Of a stretch of DNA of 25,736 nucleotides, positions 1,122-25,736 are shown one piece after another; position 1 is the stretch's first letter, and every line of letters starts with the position of its first letter. Both the position numbers and the translations under genes were made by a program. A model generated the notes under the pieces. The model had not been told where the DNA came from. It did not search any database and saw nothing but the letters and a program-made list of their open reading frames with translations. Origin of the DNA: Clostridia bacterium (GTDB taxonomy: Bacteria > UBA6262 > WVXT01 > JAUXBS01); assembly GCA_030618495.1 (NCBI GenBank), contig JAUXDE010000009.1, positions 1 to 25,736 on the forward strand, given 5' to 3'.

Positions 1122-1134
1122 CTGGAGGCAAATT

Positions 1135-1788: not shown

Positions 1789-1805
1789 TTCGTGAGAGGG
1801 TTAAA

Positions 1806-2813: not shown

Positions 2814-2824
2814 AAAGGGAACCC

Positions 2825-13032: not shown

Positions 13033-13073
13033 TCCTGCATTAATTCCCGCCTGAAAAAAATATTAATTTTTCC

Positions 13074-13102
13074 TTGACATGATTATTTTAATTTATTATT
13101 AT
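13074..13102 (+). promoter_or_regulatory. Promoter of the hydrogenase operon
   Basis: Perfect TTGACA at 13074-13079, a 17-base spacer, TATTAT at 13097-13102. Transcription would begin near 13109 and read all the hydrogenase genes. The Rex-like operator lies just downstream of the start, where bound repressor would block RNA polymerase. Confidence 0.65.
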
Positions 13103-13127
13103 TGGGTTCACCTTTTTTTAAGATGTT

Positions 13128-13145
13128 ATGTGAAAGTTTTCACAA
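13128..13145. promoter_or_regulatory. Rex-type operator (redox-sensing repressor box)
   Basis: The sequence ATGTGAAAGTTTTCACAA is a palindrome TGTGAA-N4-TTCACA. The established Rex consensus is TTGTGAA-N4-TTCACAA; only the first base of the left arm differs. Rex represses at low NADH/NAD+ and releases when NADH rises, and it is known to control hydrogenase and fermentation genes in several phyla. No rex gene is in the window, so its presence in the genome is not shown. Confidence 0.65.
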
Positions 13146-13167
13146 TATCAAACGGAAAGAACCTTAA

Positions 13168-14184
13168 ATGTCGATTTATTATCTCACCAAGAACAGCTGG
13201 AAGCGCCTGTTGTCCGGTCTCACGGAAACCTGCGATATATATGTATTAAAGGAATGTAACGGCAGCCTTTCTTATGAGTTGCTGGTCAAAGAAAGCCTTT
13301 CCTCCGATGAAATCGTTTTCGGCGGGGTTCGGGCGGTACAGTCCGTTAAGTCCTTTTTTCACCTTTACGCAGAGGATGTTTCAAAAGTAAAGAGCCAGCC
13401 CAGGAAGAGGATTATAGTGGGCGTTAAGGCATGCGACCTTACTGCTCTTGCGGTGATGGATAAAATGTTTATGGAAGGCGACTGCGTGGATCCCTTTTAT
13501 AAGATGAAGAGGGATAATACCGTGATAATCACAAGCGACTGCACCAAGCCGAATAACTACTGTTTTTGCACCCTGCTTGGCAACAAGCCGTATTCAGAGA
13601 AAGGATTTGACCTTAATATTTCCCAGTCCAAGGATGGTTTTATAGTTGAGGTTGGTTCGGATAAGGGAAAAGCCCTGGTTGATGGAAACAGGAGTATATT
13701 CGGGGGAGAAGCAAAGGAAAACCTGAATGAAGACAGGGTAAAATCAAGGGAGAAGGTGTTAGAAAAAGTAAAACAAATAAATGCGGAATTCAACCTGAAA
13801 GCCGGGTTCTGGAATGACCTGTCAAAAAAACACAATTCACCCGGATGGAAGACTGAGTCCGAAATGTGCGTGGAATGCGGGGCGTGCACCAATGTTTGCC
13901 CATCCTGTTACTGTTTCCTGCTTGCGGATATCCCGGGCAAGGATGATTTCAGCAGGATGAAGTACCAGGATTCCTGCCAGTACTCGGGTTATGCGAGGGT
14001 AGCCGGGGGGGCGAGTCCGCGTCCTGAAATTCATGAGAGGTTCAGGAACAGGTATCTCTGCAAGTATGAGTACAGGCCGGCTTCGTTGGATTTAGTGGCA
14101 TGTACCGGTTGCGGAAGGTGTATAGAGGCTTGCCAGGGAAAGATAGATAAAAGGAAAGTGCTTGCAGGTATATTGAAGAAGTAA
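13168..14184 (+). CDS. hydB: Sulfhydrogenase beta / AsrA-like 4Fe-4S electron-transfer subunit
   Basis: The 338-aa product matches the HydB/AsrA layout. The N-terminal domain has the conserved GVKACDLTAL (Cys89), SDC (Cys125) and YCFC (Cys132, Cys134) region. Two [4Fe-4S] motifs follow: Cys234, 237, 240, 244 (CVECGACTNVCP) and Cys312, 315, 318, 322 (CTGCGRCIEAC). In group 3b sulfhydrogenases and anaerobic sulfite reductase this subunit passes electrons between the flavin subunit and the catalytic part. Here the usual partners HydA and HydD are absent, and a group 4 hydrogenase follows instead. It is the first gene after the promoter and Rex-type site, and its partner flavin gene starts four bases after its stop. 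The ribosome binding site GGAAAG is modest. Confidence 0.85.
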   Translation: MSIYYLTKNSWKRLLSGLTETCDIYVLKECNGSLSYELLVKESLSSDEIVFGGVRAVQSVKSFFHLYAEDVSKVKSQPRKRIIVGVKACDLTALAVMDKMFMEGDCVDPFYKMKRDNTVIITSDCTKPNNYCFCTLLGNKPYSEKGFDLNISQSKDGFIVEVGSDKGKALVDGNRSIFGGEAKENLNEDRVKSREKVLEKVKQINAEFNLKAGFWNDLSKKHNSPGWKTESEMCVECGACTNVCPSCYCFLLADIPGKDDFSRMKYQDSCQYSGYARVAGGASPRPEIHERFRNRYLCKYEYRPASLDLVACTGCGRCIEACQGKIDKRKVLAGILKK

Positions 14185-14188
14185 AATT

Positions 14189-15007
14189 ATGGATAAGAAT
14201 ATATATAAACCAATAGAAGCTGTAGTAGAAAAGGTTATAACCGAAACCTCTAATATCAAGACCTTTGTGCTTAAACCGGAGGAAGAGATATTATTTAAGA
14301 CAGGTCAGTTTATTGAGTTGACGGTGCCGGGATTTGGTGAAGGCCCTTTTACTCCGTCATCCTCTCCATATGAAACCGACAGGATTGAAGTAACGATAAT
14401 GGATGTTGGGAAATTGACCGGAAAACTTCATGCGATGAAACAGGGCGCAAAGGTAGGGATAAGAGGCCCTTACGGTAATGGCTATCCGGTAGAGCAGTTC
14501 TACAATAAGGAAGTTCTTATACTTGGCGGCGGGGTTGGCATGGCTCCATTGAGGTCTTTCCTTCTTACCCTGCTTAAGGAATCAGAAAGGTTCAAGAAAA
14601 TCATCCTGTGCTACGGTTCAAAGACCCCCGGGGATGTGGTTTATAAAGATTCATTTCCCACATGGAAGAAGGAAAAAAACCTGAGGATTCTAAGGAGCGT
14701 TGACAAGGCTGACAAGGGTTGGAAGGAAACGGAAGGACTTGTTACTGTACTGCTTGATAAGGTCAAGCCTAACCTTAAAAACGGTGTTGCTATAGTATGC
14801 GGTCCGCCGATTATGATGAAGTTTGGCACTTTCAAACTGCTGGAAGTGGGCTACAAGCCGGAACAGATATATTTATCCATGGAAAGGAACATGTCCTGCG
14901 GGCTCGGCAAGTGCGGTCACTGCGGACTGGGCAAGTACTATGTCTGCAAGGACGGCCCCGTGTTCACGTACGATATGATAAAAGATATCCCGGAGGTGTG
15001 GGCATAA
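14189..15007 (+). CDS. hydG: Sulfhydrogenase gamma / AsrB-like FAD- and NAD(P)-binding [2Fe-2S] subunit
   Basis: The 272-aa product is a ferredoxin-NADP reductase-type protein. The FAD domain covers residues ~8-100, with FTPSSSP (54-60) at the flavin-binding position and RGPYGNGYP (92-100). The NAD(P) domain starts with LGGGVGMAPLRS (112-123) and includes CGPPIMM (204-210). The C-terminal [2Fe-2S] site uses Cys237, 242, 245 and 253 (CGLGKCGHC and YVCKDGP), as in dihydroorotate dehydrogenase electron-transfer subunits. It would oxidise NADH or NADPH, or reduce the oxidised form, and exchange electrons with the HydB-like protein. The sequence does not tell me which nucleotide is used. It lies between the HydB-like and HycB-like genes, with 2-4 base gaps. 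Confidence 0.87.
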   Translation: MDKNIYKPIEAVVEKVITETSNIKTFVLKPEEEILFKTGQFIELTVPGFGEGPFTPSSSPYETDRIEVTIMDVGKLTGKLHAMKQGAKVGIRGPYGNGYPVEQFYNKEVLILGGGVGMAPLRSFLLTLLKESERFKKIILCYGSKTPGDVVYKDSFPTWKKEKNLRILRSVDKADKGWKETEGLVTVLLDKVKPNLKNGVAIVCGPPIMMKFGTFKLLEVGYKPEQIYLSMERNMSCGLGKCGHCGLGKYYVCKDGPVFTYDMIKDIPEVWA

Positions 15008-15009
15008 AG

Positions 15010-15498
15010 ATGAAGAAACTGTTTCTTGATTACGAAAAATACAGCAAGACCAAAGATTTCAAAACGGATTGTGATTTCTTCTATCATCCGGACAATAAAG
15101 GGGTTAGTTCACTGCTCGAACTTGCCGCGTTTTCGCTTGTGTGCAGGCAGTGCGAGGAAGCTCCCTGCGTGAAGGCATGCCCGAAGGACGCGCTTGAAAA
15201 GCAAAAGGACGGGACGGTAAAAAGATACAACATGAGATGCGTTTCGTGCAAGTCCTGTGTTATAGCCTGCCCATTCGGTACCATATACCCGGAAATAATT
15301 GACTTTTTTGCGCACAAATGCGATTATTGCCTGGAAAAATCAAAAGGTGAAGTTCCTCTTTGCGTGAAAACCGCAACGGACAAAGAAGTCCTGCAGTATA
15401 TAGATGCTAGTGAAGACAGGGGAAACTATAACTATGCGGTGGGAGAGAATCTTATTGTTCATGCCGTCCCCTGGAAGAAGGAAAAGAAAAAGAAATGA
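15010..15498 (+). CDS. HycB/CooF-like ferredoxin subunit with three of four [4Fe-4S] clusters
   Basis: I chose the ATG at 15010, after GGAGG at 14993-14997; a longer frame back to 14797 would overlap the flavin gene deeply. The 162-aa product has the HycB-family four-motif layout. Motif II is Cys45, 48, 53, 57, motif III is Cys77, 80, 83, 87, and motif IV has Cys104, 107, 118. Motif I is degenerate: the first three Cys positions are Tyr11, Thr14 and Phe17, and only Cys21 remains. Motif IV's last Cys is Ala122. Since motif I Cys 1-3 pair with the last Cys of motif IV, exactly one cluster is lost and three stay complete. It likely links the diaphorase pair to the membrane hydrogenase. Its stop overlaps the next start (ATGA). 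Confidence 0.85.
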   Translation: MKKLFLDYEKYSKTKDFKTDCDFFYHPDNKGVSSLLELAAFSLVCRQCEEAPCVKACPKDALEKQKDGTVKRYNMRCVSCKSCVIACPFGTIYPEIIDFFAHKCDYCLEKSKGEVPLCVKTATDKEVLQYIDASEDRGNYNYAVGENLIVHAVPWKKEKKKK

Positions 15499-16421
15499 AG
15501 ATACTGTTTCAATATATAATTTTTCCCGGATTCCTGTTTACTGCGATTGTCGGAATGATCGCCAGCTGGATAGACAGGAAGGTCACTGCAAGGGTGCAGT
15601 GGAGAGTGGGTCCGCCGATTCTTCAGCCGCTGTATGATTTTATAAAACTGCTTGGAAAAGAAATAATTATACCAAAAGGCGCCTCCAGGGGGACTTTCCT
15701 GCTTTCTCCCGTATTCGGAATGTCGGCAATAGTCATCGTGTCAACGATGTTGTGGCTTGTGATTCTTTCGCCTGAGAACAGCTTTACCGGTGATTTAATA
15801 GTTATACTGTATTTGCTCGTCATACCTTCAATTGCCGTGATTATCGGGGCTTTTGCTTCAAAGAACCCCCTTGCATCGCTTGGAGCGTCAAGGGAGATGA
15901 AACTTATACTAGCCTATGAACTGCCTTTTATCCTTATAGTGTTTATACCGGTAATCAAGGCAGGTTACACCATAAAGCTCGGTGAACTTTTAGCGTTTCA
16001 GGCAAAAAACGGTGTATTCCTTAATCACCCGTCGTGTATTATTGCTTTTATCGTTGCCATAATGTGCATGCAGGCAAAACTCACTCTTGTGCCTTTTGAC
16101 ATGCCGGAGGCTGAAACAGAGATTATGGGAGGCGCGTATATTGAATACTCGGGAGCGCCATTGGGAATATACAAGCTTACAAGAATGATGATGCTGTTCG
16201 TTGTGCCGATGTTCCTCGTTATAATGTACATGGGCGGAATCATATTTGAAGGCTGGCATATCCTGTGGGGTATACTGAAATACGTCCTTCTTCTTGTAAT
16301 CATCGTACTTATAAGGAACACCAGCCCCAGGGTCAGGATTGACCAGGCAATGAGGTTTTTCTGGAGGCCTATGACAATTCTGGCTGTTGTGGGAGTATGT
16401 CTGGCGTATTTGGGATTATAA
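15495..16421 (+). CDS. Group 4 [NiFe] hydrogenase membrane subunit, NuoH-like (MbhM/EchB/HycD family)
   Basis: The 308-aa product is a multi-helix membrane protein, with about eight hydrophobic segments. WIDRKVTARVQWRVGPPILQ at residues ~17-36 is the conserved quinone-site loop region of NuoH-type proteins. FDMPEAETEIMGGAYIEYSG (~residues 198-217) is the acidic cytoplasmic loop shared by complex I and group 4 hydrogenases. This subunit anchors the hydrogenase core in the membrane and connects it to the antiporter arm. The PEAETEI...EYSG form is the usual one in group 4 hydrogenases. It overlaps the HycB-like gene by four bases and ends one base before the small-subunit gene, so translation is coupled. 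Confidence 0.92.
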   Translation: MKILFQYIIFPGFLFTAIVGMIASWIDRKVTARVQWRVGPPILQPLYDFIKLLGKEIIIPKGASRGTFLLSPVFGMSAIVIVSTMLWLVILSPENSFTGDLIVILYLLVIPSIAVIIGAFASKNPLASLGASREMKLILAYELPFILIVFIPVIKAGYTIKLGELLAFQAKNGVFLNHPSCIIAFIVAIMCMQAKLTLVPFDMPEAETEIMGGAYIEYSGAPLGIYKLTRMMMLFVVPMFLVIMYMGGIIFEGWHILWGILKYVLLLVIIVLIRNTSPRVRIDQAMRFFWRPMTILAVVGVCLAYLGL

Positions 16422-16844
16422 ATGAGTATTAAACTGAACGCATTAACAAAATCTTTATGGGTGTTTCATATGGCGGCAAGCCCATGCAACAACTGCGATA
16501 TTGAAATACTCGATGCCCTGACTCCCAGGCATGATATAGAAAGATTCGGGATGCTGCTTGTGGGCAGTATAAAGCACGCCGATGTACTGCTCGTTACCGG
16601 GTGTATTAATAAGAAGGTGATCGATAGGATGAAGAGAGTGTATGAGCAGGCGCCAAAACCCATAATAGTTGTGGCAGTCGGAGGCTGCGCATGCACGGGT
16701 GGCATGTTCAGGGATAGTTACAACTATGCCGGCCCCCTGGATAAAGTTTTTCCGGTTGATGCTTACGTGCCAGGTTGCCCGCCCCAGCCGGAGGCGCTGA
16801 TAGACGCGGTTGTCAAGGTAATAAATAAATTGAAGGGAAAATAA
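16422..16844 (+). CDS. [NiFe] hydrogenase small subunit, NuoB-like (MbhJ/EchC family)
   Basis: The 140-aa product is a NuoB/MbhJ-type protein carrying a single proximal [4Fe-4S] cluster. Ligands visible are Cys22 and Cys25 in SPCNNCDIE, Cys89 (or Cys91) in VGGCACTGG, and Cys119 in PGCPPQPEA. The CNNCDIE form is characteristic of group 4 hydrogenase small subunits, where complex I NuoB has adjacent Cys. The protein is short, as expected for this group, and lacks the extra clusters of group 1-3 small subunits. It passes electrons to the NiFe site in the large subunit encoded two genes downstream. It starts directly after the NuoH-like stop. Confidence 0.93.
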   Translation: MSIKLNALTKSLWVFHMAASPCNNCDIEILDALTPRHDIERFGMLLVGSIKHADVLLVTGCINKKVIDRMKRVYEQAPKPIIVVAVGGCACTGGMFRDSYNYAGPLDKVFPVDAYVPGCPPQPEALIDAVVKVINKLKGK

Positions 16845-16845
16845 C

Positions 16846-17277
16846 ATGGCAGAGGATGTTGTAGGTAAAATAAAGAATAAATTTACCGGTAAGATAATAA
16901 AAAAGACAATAAAGAAATCCGATAAGAGAGTCTATATTTATATAAACCCCGCGAATATCGTTGAAGTGATAAATTATGTTTTTCATGACCTTAAAGCAAG
17001 GTTTCAAATTGCTTCGGGAATTGATACTCCTGAAGGGATTGAAATCCAGTATCATTTTGCTTTTGACAAACTTGACAGGATTGTTTCAATATGCGTTCTG
17101 CTTGACAGGGAAAATCCCGAGATAGATTCCGCCTGCCAGGGTATCAAAGCGATAGAATGGATTGAGAGGGAAATCGCTGAATTACTCGGGGTAAAATTCA
17201 GGAATCATCCGGACATGAGGCATCTTTTACTCAGGGATGACTGGCCTAAAGGCAAGTATCCCTTAAGAAGGAAATAA
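16846..17277 (+). CDS. Hydrogenase subunit, NuoC-like 30-kDa family (MbhK-like)
   Basis: The 143-aa product has the NuoC/30-kDa signature near its end: WIEREIAELLGVKFRNHPDM then RHLLLRDDWP and KYPLRRK (residues ~105-143). The middle (~45-95) matches the usual beta-sheet domain, with the IEIQYHF...IVSICVLLDRE pattern. The N-terminal ~25 residues are very basic (KIKNKFTGKIIKKTIKKSDK). In group 4 hydrogenases this subunit is either separate, as here and in Mbh/Ech, or fused to the large subunit, as in HycE. It is structural, with no cofactor. It sits one base after the small-subunit stop and one base before the large-subunit start. Confidence 0.9.
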   Translation: MAEDVVGKIKNKFTGKIIKKTIKKSDKRVYIYINPANIVEVINYVFHDLKARFQIASGIDTPEGIEIQYHFAFDKLDRIVSICVLLDRENPEIDSACQGIKAIEWIEREIAELLGVKFRNHPDMRHLLLRDDWPKGKYPLRRK

Positions 17278-17278
17278 A

Positions 17279-18463
17279 ATGGCTAAAACTATTATTCCGG
17301 TAGGCCCATACCACCCGCTGCAGGAAGAGCCCGAATTTTTTAAACTGCACGTTGAAGGGGAGAAGGTGGTGGGGCTGGAGATAGAAATAGGTTACAACCA
17401 CCGCGGGATTGAACAACTCTGCGAACAAAAGACCTTTGACCAGGTTCCCTTCGTTGTGGAAAGAATCTGCGGAATATGCTCAACCTCGCATCCTATTGCC
17501 TGTGTTCAGGCGATAGAGGACGCTGGTGATATCAAGGTTCCGGAAAGGGCGCTTTACATAAGAACCGTAATTGCCGAACTGGAACGCATACACAGCCACC
17601 TGCTGTGGCTGGGCTTAGCAGGCCACTTCATAGGTTATAACACAGTGTTCATGTGGGCGTGGAAGTACAGGGAACCCGTTCTTGATATATGCGAGAAACT
17701 TACCGGTAACAGGAACCATTACGCCATGATGAAGCCGGGCGGAGTGAGGCGCGACATTGACGAAAACGATTTCCCGTGGGTTCTCAAGGAAATGGATAAG
17801 CTGGTTCCCGCGCTTGACCTGTTCAAGGGGGCGGTGCTTGACGACCCGGTAATTCATGCCAGGTTAAAGGGCATAGGGGTGCTTACTAAAGAAGAAATAA
17901 TAAATTACAGCGCGCTGGGTCCCACGGCAAGGGCAAGCGGTGTGGCAATTGACGTGAGAAGGGACCATCCATATGCCGCTTATGACAGGATTGACTGGAA
18001 AGTCATAACCTGTGAGGAAGGCGATGTCTTTGCGAAGGCGGTGGTGAGAATTCTTGAAATGTACGAGGCGGCAAGTATAGTAAAACAGTGCCTCAAGAAG
18101 ATGCCGAAGGGCGAGATAGATTCAAAGCCAAAGGAAATCCATCCCGGTGACGGCATAGGTATCGCGGAAGCCCCCAGGGGCGAGGTTTACCATTTCACCA
18201 GGAGCGATGGCAGTAACAGGCCTGCAAGGCATAAGGTGAGGGCGCCGAGTTTCATGAACGTCCCGACGAATCATATTGCCGCGGTTGGCGGTACCGTTTC
18301 GGACGCCACCATAGTGCTTGCGGCGATTGACCCGTGTTACTGCTGTACCGAAAGAATGGCGGCGATTGACAACAGGACAAAGAAGACAGTTTTAAACAGC
18401 CAGGATTTAATAAGGTTATCACAGGAGAAAACCGAAAGAATAAGAAAGCAATTGGGAAAATAA
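17279..18463 (+). CDS. Group 4 [NiFe] hydrogenase large (catalytic) subunit, NuoD-like
   Basis: The 394-aa product has all four NiFe ligands: Cys64 and Cys67 in RICGICSTSHP, and Cys353 and Cys356 in DPCYCCTERM. These Cys are missing from complex I NuoD, so this is a real hydrogenase. The DPCxxCTxR ending puts it in group 4, close to HycE/EchE/MbhL. About 35 residues follow Arg359. In E. coli HycE the tail is cut after the equivalent Arg, before Met, by HycI, and here Arg359-Met360 is in the same place while a HycI-type protease gene closes the operon. The reaction is reversible 2H+ + 2e- to H2 on the cytoplasmic side of the membrane. Subgroup (4d, 4g or other) needs a phylogeny. Confidence 0.95.
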   Translation: MAKTIIPVGPYHPLQEEPEFFKLHVEGEKVVGLEIEIGYNHRGIEQLCEQKTFDQVPFVVERICGICSTSHPIACVQAIEDAGDIKVPERALYIRTVIAELERIHSHLLWLGLAGHFIGYNTVFMWAWKYREPVLDICEKLTGNRNHYAMMKPGGVRRDIDENDFPWVLKEMDKLVPALDLFKGAVLDDPVIHARLKGIGVLTKEEIINYSALGPTARASGVAIDVRRDHPYAAYDRIDWKVITCEEGDVFAKAVVRILEMYEAASIVKQCLKKMPKGEIDSKPKEIHPGDGIGIAEAPRGEVYHFTRSDGSNRPARHKVRAPSFMNVPTNHIAAVGGTVSDATIVLAAIDPCYCCTERMAAIDNRTKKTVLNSQDLIRLSQEKTERIRKQLGK

Positions 18464-18464
18464 G

Positions 18465-20252
18465 ATGAATTTAATAATTTATTCAATTTCTCTGTCAATA
18501 ATAGCGGGTATAATGTGCCTGTTTATTCCTAAGAGAACAAGAGGAGTGGCTGAGACCCTGGGTGTAATAGTTTCTCTTGTTACCTTTATAATGACTATTA
18601 TGATGTTTGGCAGGGAATTTGTTTCTAAATGGTTTCTGATAGACAACCTGAGCAGGTTTGTCGTCATGGGTATAGGTATGTTCGGGTTCCTGATAGTCCT
18701 ATATTCTTTAAAATACATGCAGGGCAGGGACAGGATTAACGAGTATTACGCGTACCTGTTAATTACCATAGGCGCGTCAATCGGCGCAGTTCTTTCAAAT
18801 CATCTTATACTGCTTCTCGTTTTCTGGGGAGTTCTCGGCCTGACGCTGTACATGCTTGTTGGTATAGGAGGGTCGGATGCCTCGTCGACTGCCAAGAAAA
18901 CCTTTATTATAATAGGCGGCTCCGACGTTATCATGATTCTTGGTGTTGCCGTTACCTGGGTGCTGGGTAAGACTTTCATAATGAGTGGAATAGAAGTTTC
19001 GGTTAACAGCGGAATGTCGATGCTTGCATTCATATGCCTTGCCGTAGCGGCTTTTGCAAAAGCCGGCGCCATGCCCCTGCATTCATGGATACCCGACTGC
19101 GCGGAGAAAGCGCCCGTTTCCGTAACTGCATTCCTGCCGGCTTCTCTGGATAAATTAGTCGGTATATACTTCCTTGGCAGGATTTCAATGAAGATGTTTG
19201 TCCTGAATAAGGCGATGGGGCAGATGCTTTTAATCATAGGGGCAATCACCATTGTTGCGGCAGTTATGATGGCCCTCATACAGCATGATTTTAAAAGATT
19301 GTTAGGATACCATGCCGTATCGCAGGTGGGATACATGGTACTTGGAATAGGGACATGCAGTCCCATAGGCATAGCGGGTGGTTTATTCCACATGTTGAAT
19401 AATACTATATATAAATGCTGCCTTTTCCTCGGCAGCGGGGCGGTGGAAAAAAGAACAAAGACATCAGACCTTGATAAACTCGGGGGGCTTGCCAGGTTCA
19501 TGCCGGTAACTTTTGTGACGTTTGTTATTGCCGCATTGTCCATTTCAGGCGTTCCGCCGTTCAATGGTTTTGTTTCCAAGTGGATGATATACCAGGGCAT
19601 AGTTGACCTCGGCAGGAAAGGCGATAAGCTGTGGCTCGTATGGATGGTCGCGGCGATGTTCGGCAGCGCGCTTACGCTGGCGAGTTTCATGAAACTCATA
19701 CACGCTGTTTTCCTGGGACAGAGGGAAGGCGGAGAAAAAGTGAAGGAAGTTTCTTCATTGATGTGGATTCCCATGGTGGTTCTTGCGGGGTTGTGTATGA
19801 TTTTCGGCGTACTCGCATTCACGGTTCCCCTGGAAAAATTCATTCTGCCCGCCGTACCGGGGGTTTCGTTTACCGGCTTGTTCTCACCGAGCCTGGTTAC
19901 CTTAATGATTATCCTGGGAGTTATCCTTGGATTAATTATATACATGTTAAGTAACTTTAAAAACATAAGAGAGGACAGTCTCCCGTATATTGGCGGTGAA
20001 GAACTGCCTGTAGAGACCAGGGTTACAGGGGTTGACTTTTACCGGTCAATAAAGGATTCAAAAATTCTCGGGGGGATATACAGGGCTGCCGATAAGAAAT
20101 CATTTGATATTTATGATGTTGCCAAACGTGTTCTGAATTACTTTATCGGGATGCTCAAGTACCTGCATTCCGGATTACTGTCAAACTATGTTATCTGGGT
20201 AGTGGCGGGGATACTGGTTTTATTGATTGTTCTGATGAAAGGTTCCATATAA
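18465..20252 (+). CDS. NuoL/EchA-like antiporter-type membrane subunit (595 aa)
   Basis: The 595-aa product is a proton_antipo_M family membrane protein of about 14-16 helices. The TM7 region AAFAKAGAMPLHSWIPDCAE contains the expected Lys199. QHDFKRLLGYHAVSQVGYM (~residues 273-291) is the family's TM9 motif. The C-terminal ~100 residues (SLPYIGGEELPVET, then a DIYDVAKRVLNYFIG helix and a last TM helix) resemble the lateral-helix end of NuoL/HyfB/EchA proteins. The TM5 position that is normally Glu reads FWGVLGLTLYMLVG, so Gly122 replaces it. With the MbhD/E protein encoded next, it looks like MrpA split into two genes. It couples electron transfer to Na+ or H+ movement. It starts one base after the large-subunit stop. 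Confidence 0.9.
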   Translation: MNLIIYSISLSIIAGIMCLFIPKRTRGVAETLGVIVSLVTFIMTIMMFGREFVSKWFLIDNLSRFVVMGIGMFGFLIVLYSLKYMQGRDRINEYYAYLLITIGASIGAVLSNHLILLLVFWGVLGLTLYMLVGIGGSDASSTAKKTFIIIGGSDVIMILGVAVTWVLGKTFIMSGIEVSVNSGMSMLAFICLAVAAFAKAGAMPLHSWIPDCAEKAPVSVTAFLPASLDKLVGIYFLGRISMKMFVLNKAMGQMLLIIGAITIVAAVMMALIQHDFKRLLGYHAVSQVGYMVLGIGTCSPIGIAGGLFHMLNNTIYKCCLFLGSGAVEKRTKTSDLDKLGGLARFMPVTFVTFVIAALSISGVPPFNGFVSKWMIYQGIVDLGRKGDKLWLVWMVAAMFGSALTLASFMKLIHAVFLGQREGGEKVKEVSSLMWIPMVVLAGLCMIFGVLAFTVPLEKFILPAVPGVSFTGLFSPSLVTLMIILGVILGLIIYMLSNFKNIREDSLPYIGGEELPVETRVTGVDFYRSIKDSKILGGIYRAADKKSFDIYDVAKRVLNYFIGMLKYLHSGLLSNYVIWVVAGILVLLIVLMKGSI

Positions 20253-20798
20253 ATGGAAATTATCTTTGTTTTATTGCTTCTTATGATAATCGGTTCCATA
20301 GTTGCGTTGGAAACCAAGGACCTGCTTGCCGCGGTGATTTCAGTCGGAGCGGTTGGTCTTATTCTCAGTGTTACCTTTCTTTTCCTTGCGGCTCCCGATA
20401 TAGCAATCGTCCAGATTGTCGTGGAGGTTCTGGTGCTGGTCATATTGATACGCGCTACCATAAGCAGGGATACAACGGCGGTTTCAGGCGACAGGGAGTT
20501 CTTCGGCATGGCTGTGAGCATTGTCCTGCTGGTTGTGATCGTCATATTCGGAATCAGGGTTTTCAGTGACATCCCGCAGTTCGGCAAGCCCATTATCGCG
20601 TTGTTCAGGGATGCCCCGTCAAATACGTATATAAGCAGGGGATTGAAGGATACGGGAGCGGCAAATATCGTGACCTCGGTCATACTTGATTACCGCGCCT
20701 ATGATACTCTTGGCGAAGCCACGGTATTATTCACGGCGATACTGGGAGCCCTGGCAATACTCAGATCTAAAGCCAGGAAGAAATTAAAAGGAAAATAA
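20253..20798 (+). CDS. MbhD-MbhE fusion (MrpA C-terminal-like) subunit
   Basis: The 181-aa product combines two short subunits that are separate genes in Pyrococcus mbh. Residues 1-~85 are MbhD-like: three helices and the motif APDIAIVQIVVEVLVLVILI with the conserved Glu. Residues ~88-181 are MbhE-like, with ANIVTSVILDYRAYDTLGEA near the end, the family signature. The same pair forms the C-terminus of MrpA in Na+/H+ antiporters. In Mbh structures this part contributes to the ion path between the hydrogenase and antiporter modules. The gene starts immediately after the NuoL-like stop and ends directly before mrpB. Confidence 0.9.
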   Translation: MEIIFVLLLLMIIGSIVALETKDLLAAVISVGAVGLILSVTFLFLAAPDIAIVQIVVEVLVLVILIRATISRDTTAVSGDREFFGMAVSIVLLVVIVIFGIRVFSDIPQFGKPIIALFRDAPSNTYISRGLKDTGAANIVTSVILDYRAYDTLGEATVLFTAILGALAILRSKARKKLKGK

Positions 20799-21284
20799 AT
20801 GGTTGGAATGACCTTAATCGTAAAAACAGTTGCCCGTTGGGTTAAAAGTTTCATATTCTTGTATGGTATATACATTACCCTGTACGGACACCTGACACCC
20901 GGAGGCGGGTTTGCCGGCGGAGTCATCGTTGCCTGCTCATTCATTCTGCTTATTCTGGCTTTTGGCAAGGAAAAGGCGCTTAAGAGGATAAGTAAAGCGC
21001 TTGCTTCAGAACTTGACAGCATAGGGGCATTGATGTTTCTTATTATCGCTTTACTGGGTATATTTGCCGGCGGGACTTTCTTTATTAACTTCATCCAAAA
21101 AAATGCTCCCGGGCAGGATTTTCACCTGTTAAGCGCCGGGACCATAATACTTTCCAATATAGCGATTGCGGTAAAGGTGGGAAGTTCGCTGTTTATGGTG
21201 TTTGTAATTCTTGCGGTCCTGAGGGTTGTAAAAAAGGGAGACAAACTTGAAATGATTCAGACTAATATGAGGGGCGAGGAATGA
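20799..21284 (+). CDS. mrpB: Na+/H+ antiporter subunit MrpB / MbhF
   Basis: The 161-aa product has four hydrophobic helices and the MrpB signature YGIYITLYGHLTPGGGFAGG (residues ~24-43). LLSAGTIILSNIAIAVKVG (~108-126) is the family's second conserved helix. MrpB is required for Na+/H+ exchange in Mrp complexes and is found as MbhF in Mrp-linked hydrogenases. An ATG opens the frame directly after the MbhD/E stop. The basic/acidic C-terminus (KKGDKLEMIQTNMRGEE) is cytoplasmic by charge. Its stop overlaps the mrpC start in an ATGA arrangement. Confidence 0.93.
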   Translation: MVGMTLIVKTVARWVKSFIFLYGIYITLYGHLTPGGGFAGGVIVACSFILLILAFGKEKALKRISKALASELDSIGALMFLIIALLGIFAGGTFFINFIQKNAPGQDFHLLSAGTIILSNIAIAVKVGSSLFMVFVILAVLRVVKKGDKLEMIQTNMRGEE

Positions 21285-21628
21285 TATATATTTTATGCTT
21301 AATATTTTTCATGGTGGGATTATACGGCGTGCTCGTAAAAAAGAACATCATTAAAATTGTCCTCGGACTTATAATTATGGAATATGCCGTTAACCTTTTC
21401 CTGATAATGCTTGGCTACAGGGAAGGGGGGGTGGCGCCGATTATTTCAGAAGGCGACAGTATAACAGAATTTATAAAACATTCTGTTGACCCTCTGCCGC
21501 AGGCGCTTGTGCTTACGTCAATCGTAATAGGCCTTGGAGTCATTGCATTAATGGTAGCAATATGCATAAGGCTGTATGAAAAATATGGGACGTTTGATAT
21601 AACCGAGATGAGGAGACTGAAAGGTTGA
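21281..21628 (+). CDS. mrpC: Na+/H+ antiporter subunit MrpC / MbhG, NuoK-like
   Basis: The 115-aa product is a three-helix NuoK/MrpC protein. The pattern VGLYGVLVKKNIIKIVLGLI followed by EYAVNLFLIMLGY (residues ~12-47) includes the buried acidic and Asn residues typical of the family. DPLPQALVLTSIVIGLGVIA (~69-88) is the conserved third helix. It belongs to the Na+/H+ antiporter arm. The start overlaps the mrpB stop and the end overlaps the mrpD start by four bases if the TTG is used, so the whole set is translated as a coupled block. Confidence 0.94.
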   Translation: MIYILCLIFFMVGLYGVLVKKNIIKIVLGLIIMEYAVNLFLIMLGYREGGVAPIISEGDSITEFIKHSVDPLPQALVLTSIVIGLGVIALMVAICIRLYEKYGTFDITEMRRLKG

Positions 21629-23115
21629 ACATGATTCCGTTATTTGTTGCAGTGCCTCTGGCAGGCGCTTTTATAATTCCAATGCTTTCAAGGAAATTTA
21701 AATGGTTCCCTGATGTGCTGGGTAACCTTGTCACGCTTGCCCTGGTCATTATGTCCTTTGCGGTAATAGGCAAGTCTGGTGTGTACAGCATGGGAGCATG
21801 GAAAGCGCCCATAGGCATCGTCATGGTTCTTGACGGATTAAGCGTTTTACTTCTTGTCTCTATAAACGTAATCGCGTTTGCATCCACGTTGTATTCTATT
21901 AAATACATGGAGCAATACACGTCAAAACTTCGTTACTACAGTCTTTTCCTTTTAATGCTTGCCGGGATGAACGGGGTTGTCCTCAGCGGCGACATGTTTA
22001 ACCTGTTCGTTTTTCTTGAAATCGCCTCGGTAGCATCCTATGCTCTTGTGGGATTCGGGTGCGAGCATGAGGAACTGGAAGCATCCTTTAAGTATCTTGT
22101 TTTAGGGACAGTGGCTTCCACTTTCATACTCCTTGGCATAGGAATGACTTACGGTTCGATAGGTTCTCTGAACATGGCTCAGATTTCAGAGCAAATCAGC
22201 CAAAATGGCATGAATAACGCATTACTATTTGCGATTGCATTGTTTATTATGGGGTTCGGACTAAAGGCTGCCCTCGTGCCGTTCCATGCATGGCTTCCCG
22301 ATGCGCACCCTTCGGCTCCTGCTCCTATTTCTTCAATGCTTTCAGGTGTCCTGATCAAGGCGCTGGGTATATATACGCTGGTAAGGTTTCTTTTTAACGT
22401 TGTTGGAGTGGATGAACGGCTGCTGATGATATTGATGGTGTTAGGCGCGCTGTCAATGGTAATAGGAGTAATGCTTGCGTTTGGCCAGTGGGATTTCAAG
22501 AGACTTCTTGCTTATCACAGTATAAGCCAGGTTGGTTATATTATCCTGGGTATTGGGCTTGGTACTCCTTTGGGTATACTTGGAGGGTTGTTCCACCTTA
22601 TTAATCACTCAGCATTTAAATCTCTATTGTTCCTGAATGCCGGCGCGGTTGAGTATTCAACCGGAACGAGGGATTTGCAGGAACTGGGAGGGATAAGGGA
22701 AAAAATGCCTGTAACGGCAAATACTTCTCTTGTAGCCTCAATGTCCATTGCCGGTATTCCGCCGTTTAACGGTTTCTGGAGTAAATTGATTATTATTATT
22801 GCCTGTGTACAGGCAGGGCGCCCTGTATTTGCGGCGCTGGCGGTATTTGCAAGTATTCTTACGCTTGCTTCTTTTCTTAAGGTTCAAAAATATGTTTTCT
22901 TTGAAAAACTGAAGGAAAAATGGAATGATTTAAGGGAAGTACCTGCGTTGATGAGTCTGCCGATGGTACTGCTTGCTCTTCTGTGTATCGTGATGGGTGT
23001 ACTGCTTCTGCCGATAGGAAATACAGGAGTACTTGAGAATATTAATATTTTAGAACCTGCCGTTAAAGTTATCATGGACGGCACGGATTATGCGTCAAAA
23101 ATATTAGGTATGTAA
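21625..23115 (+). CDS. mrpD: Na+/H+ antiporter subunit MrpD / MbhH, NuoN-like
   Basis: The 496-aa product is a ~14-helix antiporter subunit with a full set of the usual charged residues. Glu132 is in FVFLEIASVASYALVG (TM5), Lys214 in GFGLKAALVPFHAWLPDAHP (TM7), and Lys245 in LSGVLIKALGIYTLVRF (TM8). DFKRLLAYHSISQVGYIILG (TM9) is typical. It therefore has the normal ion-pumping machinery that the NuoL-like subunit upstream partly lacks. Two starts are possible: TTG at 21625 with AGGAG nine bases upstream, overlapping the mrpC stop, or ATG at 21631 behind GAAAGG. They differ by two residues, so length is 494 or 496 aa. Confidence 0.94.
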   Translation: MNMIPLFVAVPLAGAFIIPMLSRKFKWFPDVLGNLVTLALVIMSFAVIGKSGVYSMGAWKAPIGIVMVLDGLSVLLLVSINVIAFASTLYSIKYMEQYTSKLRYYSLFLLMLAGMNGVVLSGDMFNLFVFLEIASVASYALVGFGCEHEELEASFKYLVLGTVASTFILLGIGMTYGSIGSLNMAQISEQISQNGMNNALLFAIALFIMGFGLKAALVPFHAWLPDAHPSAPAPISSMLSGVLIKALGIYTLVRFLFNVVGVDERLLMILMVLGALSMVIGVMLAFGQWDFKRLLAYHSISQVGYIILGIGLGTPLGILGGLFHLINHSAFKSLLFLNAGAVEYSTGTRDLQELGGIREKMPVTANTSLVASMSIAGIPPFNGFWSKLIIIIACVQAGRPVFAALAVFASILTLASFLKVQKYVFFEKLKEKWNDLREVPALMSLPMVLLALLCIVMGVLLLPIGNTGVLENINILEPAVKVIMDGTDYASKILGM

Positions 23116-23129
23116 TACCGGAGTTTTGA

Positions 23130-23639
23130 ATGCGAAAATTAGTGATGTTTATAGTTTCATTTATAACCTGGATGCTGCTGGTATTCAGGGGAAAAGCGGG
23201 AACCTGCTGTTTTAACCTGCAGGATGTGATTGCAGGATTGTTTGCAGCCATGCTGACTGCTCTTATTTTTGGTGAGACCTTTACCAAAAACCCGCATAAA
23301 TTCTTTGATTTGCGAAGGTATCTATGGTTCCTGGTTTACTTGCCCATGTTCCTTTACTGGTGCCTGCTGGCTAACCTTGACGTGGTCTACAGGGTTTTTC
23401 ATCCGAAAATGCCGATAAACCCGGGTATAGTAAAGGTGAAAACAACCCTTAAGAGCAAATCGGGTATAACCGCCCTGTGTAATTCAATAACCCTGACTCC
23501 GGGCACCCTGTGCGTGGACCTGACGGACGACGGTTATATTTACATTCACTGGATTAACGTTGAGAGTCAGAATGTTGAAGAAGCAAGCAGGATGATAATT
23601 CAGAAGTTTGAAAAAATTCTAACAAGGATATTTGAATGA
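23130..23639 (+). CDS. mrpE: Na+/H+ antiporter subunit MrpE / MbhA
   Basis: The 169-aa product has two to three N-terminal membrane helices and then a cytoplasmic domain, the MrpE layout. LRRYLWFLVYLPMFLYWCLL (~61-80) precedes ANLDVVYRVFHPKMPINPGI (~81-100), which is the MNHE signature. CNSITLTPGTLCVDLTDDGY (~116-135) is the second conserved block. MrpE is needed for assembly and full activity of Mrp complexes. CGGAG at 23118-23122 supports the ATG, and a 14-base gap separates it from mrpD. The end overlaps mrpF. Confidence 0.93.
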   Translation: MRKLVMFIVSFITWMLLVFRGKAGTCCFNLQDVIAGLFAAMLTALIFGETFTKNPHKFFDLRRYLWFLVYLPMFLYWCLLANLDVVYRVFHPKMPINPGIVKVKTTLKSKSGITALCNSITLTPGTLCVDLTDDGYIYIHWINVESQNVEEASRMIIQKFEKILTRIFE

Positions 23640-23908
23640 GCGCGGATATTATTTACCAGGTATTTTTTGGTGTGTTGCTGGCGTGCTGCTCGATCTGTAT
23701 GTACCGGATAAGTTCGGGGCCCACTGTCCCCGACAGGACCGTAGCCATTGACATCATGGGTGTAGTCATGGTTGGTTTTTGCGCCATTCTGTCAATTGTA
23801 ACGGGCAAGGATTATTATATAAACATTGCGATTGCCTGGGCTCTACTGAGCTTCATAGGCACTCTTGCGCTGGCGAAGTTCCTGGAAGGTAAGGGATTCG
23901 ATGAATGA
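23636..23908 (+). CDS. mrpF: Na+/H+ antiporter subunit MrpF / MbhB
   Basis: The 90-aa product has three membrane helices. The MrpF signature is seen in YRISSGPTVPDRTVAIDIMG (residues ~23-42), with the conserved Asp in PDRTVAID that is part of the ion path. The C-terminal helix IALAWALLSFIGTLALAKFLE-like segment is typical of the family. It overlaps mrpE by four bases (ATGA) and mrpG by eight bases. The gene order E-F-G is the standard mrp order. Confidence 0.92.
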   Translation: MSADIIYQVFFGVLLACCSICMYRISSGPTVPDRTVAIDIMGVVMVGFCAILSIVTGKDYYINIAIAWALLSFIGTLALAKFLEGKGFDE

Positions 23909-24236
23909 GATTATAGGTTTAATATTTATTGCGGTAGGAGTTTTCTTTGACCTGGCAGGTTGTATCGGGCTGGCAAGACTGCCTGATATCTACAACCGGC
24001 TCCAGGCAGCAACGAAAAGCGTAACCCTTGGGACATGTCTTATTCTCGCCGGGTGTGCAGTATTTAAAGGAATCCTGTCCCCCATGGGTATAAAAGCTCT
24101 TATCTGCGGTGTTTTTATTTTACTGACGTCGCCGACGGCTGCCCACGCTCTTGCGCGGGGCGCCCACTTGTTTGGAGTGAAATTGTGGGACAAGAGTGTC
24201 TGCGACATGTATGAACAGGACAAAAAGAACTTTTAG
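23901..24236 (+). CDS. mrpG: Na+/H+ antiporter subunit MrpG / MbhC
   Basis: I chose the ATG at 23901 (eight-base overlap with mrpF) over an upstream in-frame ATG at 23865, because MrpG proteins begin just before this first helix. The 111-aa product has three helices and the family pattern GCIGLARLPDIYNRLQAATK (~20-39) followed by TSPTAAHALARGAHLFGV (~77-94). MrpG is a small structural member of the antiporter arm. With this gene the Mrp set B-G is complete. It is the last gene before the only long gap inside the operon. Confidence 0.92.
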   Translation: MNEIIGLIFIAVGVFFDLAGCIGLARLPDIYNRLQAATKSVTLGTCLILAGCAVFKGILSPMGIKALICGVFILLTSPTAAHALARGAHLFGVKLWDKSVCDMYEQDKKNF

Positions 24237-24247
24237 ACATTTATCTC

Positions 24248-24321
24248 GGAGGTCGTTCACGTGAGAGGCTCACTCCGAATCACGAAAGCGCTTGGGTGAA
24301 ACCTTTCGTGATTAGGCCTCC
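24248..24321 (+). ncRNA. Possible structured RNA element in the operon gap (three-stem junction)
   Basis: An outer stem pairs 24248-24254 (GGAGGTC) with 24315-24321 (GGCCTCC, one G-T pair). Inside it are a short hairpin, GTGAG-AGG-CTCAC at 24261-24273, and a longer hairpin with 11 perfect pairs, 24278-24288 with 24303-24313, around a 14-base loop. The three stems make a closed 74-nt domain. I cannot match it to a known riboswitch. It could be a cis-regulatory leader, a processing site separating the antiporter genes from the ferredoxin gene, or a small palindromic repeat. No T-run follows, so it is not a simple terminator. Confidence 0.4.
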
Positions 24322-24360
24322 TCAATAAAATCTAAAAGTTCAAGAGAAAAAGGAGAAAGG

Positions 24361-24972
24361 ATGAAGTATCCGAAACTCAGGGAATTGAGGGAAGCCGTTA
24401 AGGCGTTGATAAAGGGGCCCTATACGAGTAAGTTCCCTTATGAACCTTACATTGCGGAAAATTTTCGCGGTAAGCCCGAATATGTTGAAGATGAATGCAT
24501 AGGATGCGGAGCCTGCGCGGAAGTCTGCCCGGCAAGGGCGATAGACGTGGTTGAGAAAATAAACAGGAACGGTAAATCAACAAGAAAATTGGTTCTGCAC
24601 TATGATATATGTATATTTTGCGGGCAGTGCGTGGCGAACTGCACTTCTGAAAAGGGGATAAAGCAGACACACGAATACGCCCTGGCATTGTTTGACAGGA
24701 AACTGGCGGTTGAGGAAGTGGAAAAGGAACTTGTCCTGTGCCAGGAATGCGGAGAAGTTATCGGACCCAGGGACCACCTTGTTTTCCTGGCGAATAAACT
24801 CGGGCTGCTTGCCTCGGGTAACCCTCTCTTGATGCTGACTTCCCAGGAAGAACTGGGGCTGTTAAAGGAAGATCCTGCTGAGAAGTCCTCGCCTGAAGGA
24901 AGAGCGAACATGTTCAGGGTTTTGTGCCCGAAATGCAGGCATGAAACCGTTCTTACAGATATCTGGGGATAA
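24361..24972 (+). CDS. Hydrogenase 4Fe-4S subunit, NuoI/HyfH/MbhN-like, with C-terminal zinc-ribbon-like Cys pairs
   Basis: The 203-aa product has two [4Fe-4S] motifs: Cys46, 49, 52, 56 (CIGCGACAEVCP) and Cys84, 87, 90, 94 (CIFCGQCVANC). They are spaced as in NuoI and the HycF/EchF/MbhN subunits. A C-terminal extension (~125-203) contains CQEC and CPKC pairs that could bind one zinc ion, a feature also seen in HycF-like subunits. In Mbh this subunit takes electrons from ferredoxin and hands them to the small subunit. Here it could also receive them from the diaphorase route. AAGGAG is present upstream, with the structured gap region before it. Confidence 0.9.
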   Translation: MKYPKLRELREAVKALIKGPYTSKFPYEPYIAENFRGKPEYVEDECIGCGACAEVCPARAIDVVEKINRNGKSTRKLVLHYDICIFCGQCVANCTSEKGIKQTHEYALALFDRKLAVEEVEKELVLCQECGEVIGPRDHLVFLANKLGLLASGNPLLMLTSQEELGLLKEDPAEKSSPEGRANMFRVLCPKCRHETVLTDIWG

Positions 24973-25003
24973 TCTATCACTATTTTCCCAACGGGAATAT
25001 AAC

Positions 25004-25501
25004 ATGTTTGATTCTGACAATTCTCAATTAACGAAATTAAAAAAACTATTAAAACAAAAAACCCTCATCGTAGGTATAGGCAATCCTCTTAAGGGTGATG
25101 ACGGCGCAGGCCCGGAACTGATAAGGAAGCTTGAAGAAAAAAAACTCCCGGCTGGAAAATACCGGTTACTGGACGTTGGGGAAGCGCCCGAGAACTACCT
25201 TCACAATATTATAAAAGAAAAGCCGGATACGCTGATGCTGGTGGACGCGGTTGATATGAAAATATCCCCGGGGTCTGTAAAAATACTGAAATACGATGAT
25301 ATCCTTGACAACTCTCTTTCCACTCACAATGCTTCGTTAAAATTAACGATGGACTATATAAAATCGGAAATTAATACGGATATATTTATTGTTGGCATTC
25401 AGCCCGCGGGTGTTGGATTCGGCGACTCTATTTCAGCCGAAGTCAACGAAGCAATAAAAAAAATCTGCCGCATAATTGGAATTAAGGGGACATGTACCTA
25501 A
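25004..25501 (+). CDS. hycI: Hydrogenase maturation endopeptidase, HycI family
   Basis: I chose the ATG at 25004; an upstream in-frame ATG at 24941 would overlap the preceding gene by 32 bases. The 165-aa product has the hydrogenase maturation peptidase motifs: GIGNPLKGDDGAGPEL (24-39), GEAPENY (59-65), LVDAVDM (79-85), THNASLKL (107-114) and GIQPAGVGFG (131-140). These follow E. coli HycI more closely than HybD. The likely nickel-sensing residues are Asp32/33, Asp81 or Asp84, and His108. It would remove the C-terminal tail of the group 4 large subunit after Arg359 once nickel is inserted. The last six or so residues (IKGTCT) and the stop are encoded by the left arm of the palindromic repeat. 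Confidence 0.9.
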   Translation: MFDSDNSQLTKLKKLLKQKTLIVGIGNPLKGDDGAGPELIRKLEEKKLPAGKYRLLDVGEAPENYLHNIIKEKPDTLMLVDAVDMKISPGSVKILKYDDILDNSLSTHNASLKLTMDYIKSEINTDIFIVGIQPAGVGFGDSISAEVNEAIKKICRIIGIKGTCT

Positions 25502-25570
25502 TTATTGGATTATGTCTAAACCATTATTTTCGCGTAATTATCAATAATTAGGTACGTGTCCCCATAATTC
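25479..25570. repeat. GGGACA-type palindromic repeat, copy 2
   Basis: Bases 25479-25507 and 25542-25570 are reverse complements at 27 of 29 positions, around 34 loop bases. One of the two mismatches is a G-T-type change (CAT versus CAC in the GGGGACA core). The core GGGGACATGTACCTAATTA resembles copy 1 (GGGACAGACACCTATTTA). It runs from inside the protease gene, across its stop, to 14 bases before the next start. Function is likely a dispersed REP/MITE-type element; the strong stem might also stabilise or end the upstream mRNA. Confidence 0.8.
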
Positions 25571-25584
25571 AAAAAGGTCATGCC

Positions 25585-25736
25585 ATGACACTTCTGGTGA
25601 AAAAACACTTATTATTAATAATACTGATATCGGTTGTTTCGGCAGTGGTTTATTCCAATTCACTTAATAATTCCTTTCAATACGACGATGCCTTCAATAT
25701 AGTCGGAAATACCCTGATAAAAAGCCTTGAAAATAT
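25585..25736 (+). CDS. TMTC/PMT-like polytopic membrane protein, N-terminal fragment (3' truncated by window edge)
   Basis: The frame runs from ATG at 25585 (AAAGG eight bases upstream) off the end of the window, giving 50 residues. The first hydrophobic helix (~8-25) is followed by YSNSLNNSFQYDDAFNIVGN. The family pattern Y-x-N-S/x-L-x-N-x-F-x-Y-D-D is typical of the first luminal/periplasmic loop of TMTC-type O-mannosyltransferases and bacterial TPR-containing glycosyltransferase relatives, where the DD pair is catalytic in the GT-C fold. I cannot see the TPR part. It starts a new transcription unit after the hydrogenase operon and the palindrome. Confidence 0.6.
   Translation, partial: MTLLVKKHLLLIILISVVSAVVYSNSLNNSFQYDDAFNIVGNTLIKSLEN

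Follow-up and report, generated by a model that had tools for sequence, protein, structure and literature searches.

A multi-phylum operon combining a sulfhydrogenase-type diaphorase with an Mrp-linked group 4 [NiFe] hydrogenase: a candidate ion-coupled NADH:proton oxidoreductase

Organization of the operon and its subunits

We observed that the window (the whole stretch of 25,736 nucleotides analyzed here) contains an operon of 17 genes at 13168-25501. The genes lie on one strand, nearly gapless, with a single strong promoter-like site ahead of them. Intergenic distances range from -44 to +14 bases, the sole exception being 124 bases 5' of the NuoI-like gene. All the genes named in a preliminary description of this DNA were found in this tight operon, in the order given there. 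The features are as follows:

13074..13102, +, sigma-70-like promoter TTGACA-17-TATTAT (11/12; best promoter-like match in 12950-25736, by consensus match only)
13128..13145, +, putative Rex operator ATGTGAAAGTTTTCACAA, one mismatch
13168..14184, +, HydB/AsrA-like [4Fe-4S] subunit (NCBIfam sulfhydrogenase beta, E 1e-50; SHI beta 9nez_B)
14189..15007, +, HydG/AsrB-like FAD/NAD(P)H diaphorase, C-terminal [2Fe-2S] motif (family matches, conserved cysteines)
15010..15498, +, HycB-like ferredoxin relay
15495..16421, +, NuoH/MbhM/HycD-like membrane anchor (conserved charged residues)
16422..16844, +, [NiFe] small subunit (NuoB/MbhJ/HycG-like)
16846..17277, +, NuoC/MbhK-like subunit
17279..18463, +, group 4 [NiFe] large subunit
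18465..20252, +, NuoL/MrpA N-terminal-like antiporter subunit (best PDB match MrpA 6z16_A)
20253..20798, +, MbhD-MbhE fusion (MrpA C-terminal part)
20799..21284, +, MrpB/MnhB
21281..21628, +, MrpC/MnhC
21625..23115, +, MrpD/MnhD, MbhH-like antiporter subunit (best PDB match MbhH 6cfw_H)
23130..23639, +, MrpE/MnhE
23636..23908, +, MrpF/MnhF
23901..24236, +, MrpG/MnhG (ORF opens at 23865; ATG at 23901 the most likely start)
24361..24972, +, NuoI/HycF-like 2x[4Fe-4S] relay, C-terminal CxxC...CPxC quartet
25004..25501, +, HycI-type maturation protease (ORF opens at 24941; probable start 25004)

The HycB start was placed at 15010 and not at 14797, since the longer ORF runs into hydG.

The diaphorase pair belongs to the HydB/HydG family. 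The predicted model of HydB matched the sulfhydrogenase I beta fold (TM 0.80), and 15 of its cysteines, including the cluster ligands, were kept in 55-56 of 56 sequences. HydG has an FAD/NAD domain and the C-terminal [2Fe-2S] motif, and its cysteines 237, 242, 245 and 253 were kept in 62/62 sequences. The scores of both fell below the strict NCBIfam cut-offs for the SHI/SHII equivalogs, which indicates a homologous family and not the same equivalog. The third soluble subunit had been described as a three-cluster HycB-like protein; this holds within the genus, but most relatives have four clusters. As described earlier, neither of the group 3b genes HydA and HydD occurs in the operon. We found no second Fer4_22 (HydB-family) protein besides the operon HydB in the genome, which is 98% complete.

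The hydrogenase core is of the group 4 [NiFe] type. The large subunit has both CxxC pairs intact (C64/C67 and C353/C356), with the four Ni-Fe cysteines kept in 81/81 sequences, and a HycE-type C-terminal extension beyond the DPCxxC-TER motif. The NuoB-like small subunit has only the proximal [4Fe-4S] ligands (C22, C25, C89 and C119, kept in 77/77 sequences), and the core is accompanied by the NuoH-like anchor and an antiporter-like subunit. The NuoL-like subunit most resembled the N-terminal portion of MrpA, so that together with MbhDE it makes up a split MrpA. The complete Mrp B-G set with an MbhD/E fusion proposed earlier is thus all present, but the set extends to A-G with MrpA in two pieces, and these homologues identify the module as an Mrp arm with a putative role in ion transport.

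Motifs for two [4Fe-4S] clusters, with conserved ligands, are present in the NuoI-like subunit. The best fold match of its predicted model was E. coli HycF, while MbhN came only at rank 45. A HycF-type cysteine quartet was kept in all 55-56 sequences. In E. coli, the C-terminal segment of HycF that bears this quartet contacts HycB (PMC9474812). The resemblance suggests a wiring like that of formate hydrogenlyase, with the diaphorase in place of the formate dehydrogenase. The HycF resemblance and the quartet fit a relay role better than the second ferredoxin entry suggested earlier for this subunit.

Conservation and lineage of the diaphorase module

We examined the layout in relatives. HydB-HydG-HycB lay upstream of the core in 51/51 loci with enough upstream DNA, an order conserved far beyond chance, which rules out chance or mis-annotation as its source. 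In the large-subunit tree, a single clade (84 rows, support 99) held every HydBG operon and spanned roughly a dozen bacterial phyla, most of them uncultured. Outside this clade we found paralogues (n=11, Omnitrophota, 43-48% identical), whose operons lack HydB, HydG and HycB and whose NuoI-like subunits lack the quartet. Some Omnitrophota genomes carry both the operon type and the paralogue type.

The HydG tree placed 66 complex-linked HydG in one clade (100/100), separate from group 3b HydG (100/97). Relatives with a HydBGDA enzyme have a distinct HydB/HydG pair at that locus and retain the operon pair as well; the first refuting observation named earlier, a pair next to HydA/HydD and none here, was thus not made. 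Several genomes holding both, together with the separate HydG clades, rule out that the operon pair was taken over from a group 3b enzyme. The operon HydB was the sole HydB in 14/24 genomes, and in 8 of those 14 the operon encoded the only PF00374 hydrogenase.

Distances of HydB, HydG and HycB correlated with those of the soluble core at r 0.84-0.88, and with those of the antiporter subunits at 0.41-0.69. At one locus (L079) the membrane-arm genes are placed apart, and HydB, HydG and HycB remain beside the soluble core. Gene fusions linking the diaphorase module to the core were not seen among the loci compared. Conservation, both trees, the absence of the module from the paralogues and co-evolution with the soluble arm strongly support the earlier claim that the diaphorase is a dedicated part of this group 4 Mrp-linked hydrogenase.

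The conserved gene order establishes a functional link and is not proof of physical assembly. HydB, HydG and HycB could make up a soluble oxidoreductase of their own (NAD(P)H:ferredoxin, or sulfur- or sulfite-related like AsrAB or sulfhydrogenase), merely co-transcribed with a ferredoxin-dependent Mbh-type hydrogenase, and in the family profile comparison the best score of HydG was indeed to AsrB. However, the operon has no AsrC-like partner gene. A physical connection between HycB and the HycF-type quartet is already known, and the quartet is absent where HycB is absent. As the three proteins also co-evolve with the soluble core and stay with it at L079, we consider this explanation very improbable.

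Relation to known hydrogenases

The nearest parallel in wiring is FHL-1 (E. coli FdhF-HycBCDEFG, group 4a). Shared with it are a HycB-type relay, a HycF-type relay with the quartet, a HycG/HycE/HycD-like core and a HycI protease with a C-terminal extension. However, HydB/HydG takes the place of a formate dehydrogenase, and a full Mrp arm is found where FHL-1 has HycC alone. A group 4a or 4b formate hydrogenlyase would have a formate dehydrogenase gene, but the operon contains none. The window encodes no molybdopterin enzyme at all; a NuoEF-type formate dehydrogenase on contig C21 is the sole one of the genome. FdhA-type genes do occur upstream at three related loci (L002-L004), but a rex-type gene and a gap wide enough for a promoter lie in between. 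A formate hydrogenlyase served by a nearby formate dehydrogenase was therefore ruled out.

Mbh of Pyrococcus furiosus (group 4d) is the closest solved structure to the large subunit by sequence (280 bits), and shares the Mrp-type arm with MbhD/E, MrpB-G and an MbhH-like MrpD. To our knowledge, Mbh has neither HydB, HydG or HycB nor an MrpA N-terminal antiporter subunit. Its ferredoxin-entry subunit MbhN is short and lacks the quartet, whereas the NuoI-like subunit here is HycF-like and the operon has all three diaphorase-module genes, which sets it apart from group 4d. With P. furiosus HydBGDA (soluble hydrogenase/sulfhydrogenase I, group 3b) it shares HydB, HydG and the HydB fold (9nez, 9nf0), but the HydA/HydD core is missing, HydG falls in its separate clade, and a membrane core is attached instead, probably through HycB.

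Part of this operon type is already in print. The available text of PMC6349859 (2019) describes a group 4 operon of Saganbacteria RX5A with asrA, asrB, cooF and Mrp genes and with relatives in Omnitrophica and Zixibacteria; it proposes an Mbh-like function, leaves the donor unknown and does not describe a clade-wide pattern. The RX5A locus differs in also having a molybdopterin oxidoreductase. The combination of modules singled out earlier as unusual is thus present, but it is widespread and not peculiar to this genome. The large subunit of Ca. Saelkia (L014) is ~70% identical to that of the window. Its only hydrogenase is classed as 4g and Mrp-linked in the available text of PMC8542988, where a diaphorase module is not mentioned; 4g enzymes are presumed to be ferredoxin-coupled. 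Group 4g is polyphyletic (PMC11291895) and has no biochemical characterization (PMC7886697).

Electron donor, direction and physiological role

We propose that the products of the operon assemble into a single membrane complex, which would act as an ion-coupled NADH:H+ oxidoreductase and is probably H2-evolving and reversible; we put the probability of this reading at roughly 70%. NADH would be oxidized at the HydG FAD, and electrons would pass from the HydG [2Fe-2S] cluster through the [4Fe-4S] clusters of HydB, then HycB, the HycF-like NuoI and the NuoB-like subunit to the [NiFe] site for the reduction of protons to H2. As in Mbh and complex I, the NuoH-like subunit would link turnover to the movement of ions in the full Mrp arm. 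Against this reading, the MrpA TM5 glutamate is missing from the NuoL-like subunit in 66/67 family rows, and the genome also has Rnf and Nfn-like genes able to interconvert carriers.

The choice of nucleotide is guided by a putative operator of Rex, the NADH sensor. With TTGTGAANNNNTTCACAA as the motif reference, which we take to be the Rex operator consensus, the site at 13128-13145 was the only one with <=3 mismatches in the window. It follows the promoter, and a Rex-like site with 0-1 mismatches was seen near the hydB start in 6/6 sampled genomes of the phylum. In a close relative a rex gene lies directly upstream of the operon, and the genome analyzed here has a Rex of its own on contig C60. 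These sites would favor NADH, and derepression at high NADH fits a role in NADH disposal. A clear Rex site was found in just 16/54 loci, which counts against the NADH reading, and the HydG motifs examined gave no separation between NADH and NADPH preference.

A different possibility is that ferredoxin is the main donor through the NuoI-like subunit and HydB/HydG a side branch, joining ferredoxin, NAD(P) and H2 in an enzyme that may confurcate or reduce NAD(P)+. The Mbh and Ech relatives use ferredoxin, the NuoI-like subunit has its two [4Fe-4S] motifs, and HydDB lists 4g as putative ferredoxin-coupled (PMC5037454), as most papers assume. However, HycF in E. coli is a relay from HycB and not a ferredoxin acceptor (PMC9474812), HydG resembles the sulfhydrogenase diaphorase subunit without a known bifurcating flavin, and the Rex site indicates NADH. 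We regard a ferredoxin donor as rather unlikely.

The small NADH/H2 span makes reversibility of the proposed NADH-linked enzyme probable. A small energy conservation may be possible while H2 is low; at higher H2 the ion gradient would pay for shedding NADH electrons as H2. It counts against the proposal that H2 formation from NADH is endergonic when H2 is high, so that running this way the enzyme would achieve little or even negative net ion pumping. An enzyme working mainly in H2 uptake, as an ion-pumping NAD(P)+ reductase in, for example, an acetogenic lifestyle, would find the reaction from H2 to NAD+ downhill at high H2, and the MetV/MetF, NADH-type formate dehydrogenase and Rnf genes are compatible with the Wood-Ljungdahl pathway. 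Rex-repressed genes, however, as a rule dispose of NADH and do not make it. Besides that of the operon, the genome (98% complete) has a single [NiFe] large subunit, of group-1 type and beside metVF on a different contig. It could itself belong to the uptake enzyme, and mainly uptake therefore appears improbable. An [FeFe] hydrogenase was looked for in the same genome and not found.

Taken across the clade, we lean, with less assurance, towards this multi-phylum "group 4g" lineage being independent of ferredoxin: a respiratory-type ion-coupled NADH:proton hydrogenase with FHL-like wiring and NADH diaphorase input, and the chief route by which many uncultured fermenters discharge NADH. Group 4g enzymes are routinely annotated as ferredoxin-coupled, and the literature usually assumes ferredoxin for them, so the useful contribution here would be the reassigned electron donor, the asrA/asrB/cooF operon type being itself partly known since 2019. 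Should NADH be the donor across the clade, the redox balance in metabolic models of Omnitrophota and of many other uncultured groups would have to change: these organisms could use the ion gradient to release NADH electrons as H2 and would need no bifurcating hydrogenase for it. Such an enzyme would also add an electron-input module to the complex-I-type core, beyond ferredoxin entry and formate dehydrogenase, and so bear on the origin of the complex I NADH module. HydB-HydG-HycB together with the HycF-type quartet offers a marker by which the class is easily recognized.

The window also contains a diderm-type cluster, bamA-lpxA, which fits poorly with the "Clostridia bacterium" label on some records of the phylum.

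The operon and its Mrp arm

The window is the entire contig C152 of its source genome (1.69 Mb, 98% complete), and its operon (13168-25501, + strand) has 17 genes in a single direction. Spacings and overlaps are of a few bases, save for 124 bases 5' of the NuoI-like gene. Using Pfam and NCBIfam, we identified HydB, HydG, a HycB-like protein, NuoH, NuoB, NuoC, the NuoD/[NiFe] large subunit, a NuoL-like protein, MbhD-E, MnhB, C, D, E, F and G, a NuoI-like protein and HycI. In the large subunit, the nickel ligand motifs CGIC and DPCYCC are retained, and the C terminus is extended as in HycE.

Features of the operon and its upstream region
13074-13102: near-consensus promoter (sequence match)
13128-13145: putative Rex operator ATGTGAAAGTTTTCACAA, 3' of the promoter
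15010-15498: HycB-like relay; four ligands of one cluster lost
18465-20252: NuoL-like subunit; Gly at the site of the MrpA TM5 Glu

The preliminary description had claimed an Mrp B-G set with an MbhD/E fusion. This was borne out, and the set is more complete than claimed: the closest match of the window's NuoL-like protein was the N-terminal part of MrpA, and that of the D subunit (MnhD) was MbhH, so that the Mrp set is complete with MrpA in two pieces. In the NuoL-like subunit, Gly replaces the key TM5 Glu of MrpA in 66 of 67 family rows, and an Asp (D154) is conserved near this site. The arm may therefore function differently in its distal half.

We also observed a long stem-loop-like repeat 5' of the NuoI-like gene (24237-24340) and, 3' of HycI (25480-25570), an inverted repeat (GGGGACATGTACC...) that resembles a mobile-element end. 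At 1-4947, the consecutive genes bamA, skp/ompH, lpxD, lpxC-fabZ and lpxA identify the organism as a diderm bearing an outer membrane.

Spread and co-inheritance of the diaphorase

The union of a group 4 Mrp hydrogenase and an NAD(P)H diaphorase dedicated to it is a real, conserved and phylogenetically coherent variant; as first proposed, this union is upheld by gene order, the large-subunit clade and the HydG clade. A species-genome scan found 456 relatives, and 80 were kept at 64-75% identity. By record titles, several of which are MAG labels of uncertain worth, these belong to Omnitrophota, Fibrobacterota, Verrucomicrobiota, Kiritimatiellota, Lentisphaerota, Elusimicrobiota, Spirochaetota, Hydrogenedentota, Actinomycetota, Pseudomonadota, Caldisericota, Mcinerneyibacteriota, FCPU426 and the window's own small phylum. 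Gene order was near-identical throughout, and HydB, HydG and HycB were present in every one of the 51 loci that extend 4.6 kb or more 5' of the large subunit. At one locus (L079) the soluble-arm genes, including HydB/HydG/HycB, are grouped, and NuoH, NuoL and the Mrp genes lie 3' of HycI. At four others (L046, L053, L058 and L076) NuoI and HycI follow the core without an Mrp block; since these contigs are mostly short, the Mrp genes may be located elsewhere. The genome recorded as Ca. Obscuribacterium magneticum (G015) has two copies of the operon type (L061 and L145).

In the large-subunit tree, the 69 HydBG loci without exception grouped with 15 contig-edge loci in one clade (SH-aLRT 99), apart from a clade of paralogues (support 99); the deeper branching order is unsure, as outgroup branches are long. 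Matches occurred in 191 of 285 sampled genomes of Omnitrophota, the phylum of G006, as a window-type set (62-71% identity) and a paralogue set (43-48%) that often co-occurs with it in one genome. HydB, HydG and HycB were absent from all 11 paralogue loci examined, where gene order also differs. In the HydG tree, a single clade (100/100) held 66 complex-linked proteins, with group 3b HydG set apart (100/97), including those from genomes holding both types. Pairwise distances of HydB, HydG and HycB tracked the large-subunit and NuoI distances (r 0.84-0.88) more closely than the NuoL, MnhD, MnhB and MnhE distances (r 0.41-0.69), and the diaphorase was therefore inherited together with the soluble arm.

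HydB is the sole protein of its family in the window genome and in 14 of 24 relatives' genomes; in eight of these 14 (G006, G007, G008, G010, G018, G020, G022 and G024) the operon's hydrogenase is also the sole one of PF00374. We found no relatives with HydB/HydG beside HydA/HydD elsewhere and missing from this operon, the case named in the preliminary description as refuting the link.

HydDB lists group 4g as of 'undetermined role, putative ferredoxin-coupled' (PMC5037454); the group is polyphyletic (PMC11291895) and uncharacterised (PMC7886697). One report gives a Mrp-linked 4g enzyme, likened to other Mbh enzymes, as the sole hydrogenase of Ca. Saelkia (PMC8542988), whose operon is among our relatives (L014), and Matheus Carnevali et al. 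(2019) describe a Saganbacteria RX5A group 4 hydrogenase with asrA, asrB, cooF and Mrp genes, leaving the donor open (PMC6349859). Our literature search, which mostly did not reach subscription journals, found no description of the HydBG-linked clade as such.

Proposed electron path and donor

The cluster and metal ligand cysteines are fully or almost fully conserved (HydB 15; HydG 4, in a [2Fe-2S] motif; NuoB 4; NuoI 8 + 4; large subunit 4). The predicted HydB fold resembles sulfhydrogenase I beta (TM 0.80). For the NuoI-like subunit, a moderate-confidence model (pLDDT 77) gave E. coli HycF of formate hydrogenlyase as the first match, whereas MbhN of Mbh ranked only 45th. Its C-terminal CxxC...CPxC quartet is present in all 55-56 sequences and missing from the NuoI-like proteins of the paralogue clade. 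By analogy with E. coli, in which the quartet-bearing C-terminal part of HycF touches HycB (PMC9474812), electrons may pass from HydG through HydB, HycB, NuoI and NuoB to the [NiFe] site. Of 66 HycB sequences, 50 have full ligand sets for four clusters. The window's genus has lost precisely the four ligands of one cluster, whereas no cluster is missing in related genera; as some ligands of the same cluster are lost in other lineages too, it is dispensable.

The idea that most merits a test is that the donor is NADH rather than ferredoxin. Textbook potentials are -320 mV for NADH and, for H2, -414 mV at 1 atm and about -270 to -300 mV at 1-10 Pa. With this pair near equilibrium, reversibility would be expected of an ion-coupled enzyme, which may save a small amount of energy when H2 is low and may use the ion gradient to form H2 when it is higher.

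Putative Rex sites and neighbouring genes

The putative operator at 13128-13145 has one mismatch to TTGTGAANNNNTTCACAA, which we take to be the Rex consensus, and is the window's sole site at ≤3 mismatches. In each of the five further genomes from the window's phylum, putative sites (0-1 mismatches) occur 5' of hydB or at its start. Among the 54 loci as a whole, 16 carry such a site (≤2 mismatches) vs ~1% of random stretches, although the loci are related and the count is not independent. L003 has a rex gene immediately 5' of the operon, and an upstream gene matching it in length and position is present in both L002 and L004. Since Rex senses the NADH/NAD+ ratio, these sequence matches favour NADH as the nucleotide and a role in NADH disposal.

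In the close relatives L003 (364-5508) and L004 (573-5720), the DNA upstream of the hydrogenase operon encodes FdhA together with an additional HydB-like protein, as well as MobA-like, FdhD and Rex proteins (domains checked in L003); here a HydB-type subunit is paired with a formate dehydrogenase. Elsewhere in the window genome (L089, contig C60, 501-10698, - strand), a cluster of hypD, NfnAB-like genes, hypE, group-1-type [NiFe] small and large subunits, a further small gene, MetV/MetF, a radical SAM gene and rex resembles an H2-linked methylene-THF reductase locus such as a Wood-Ljungdahl organism would have.
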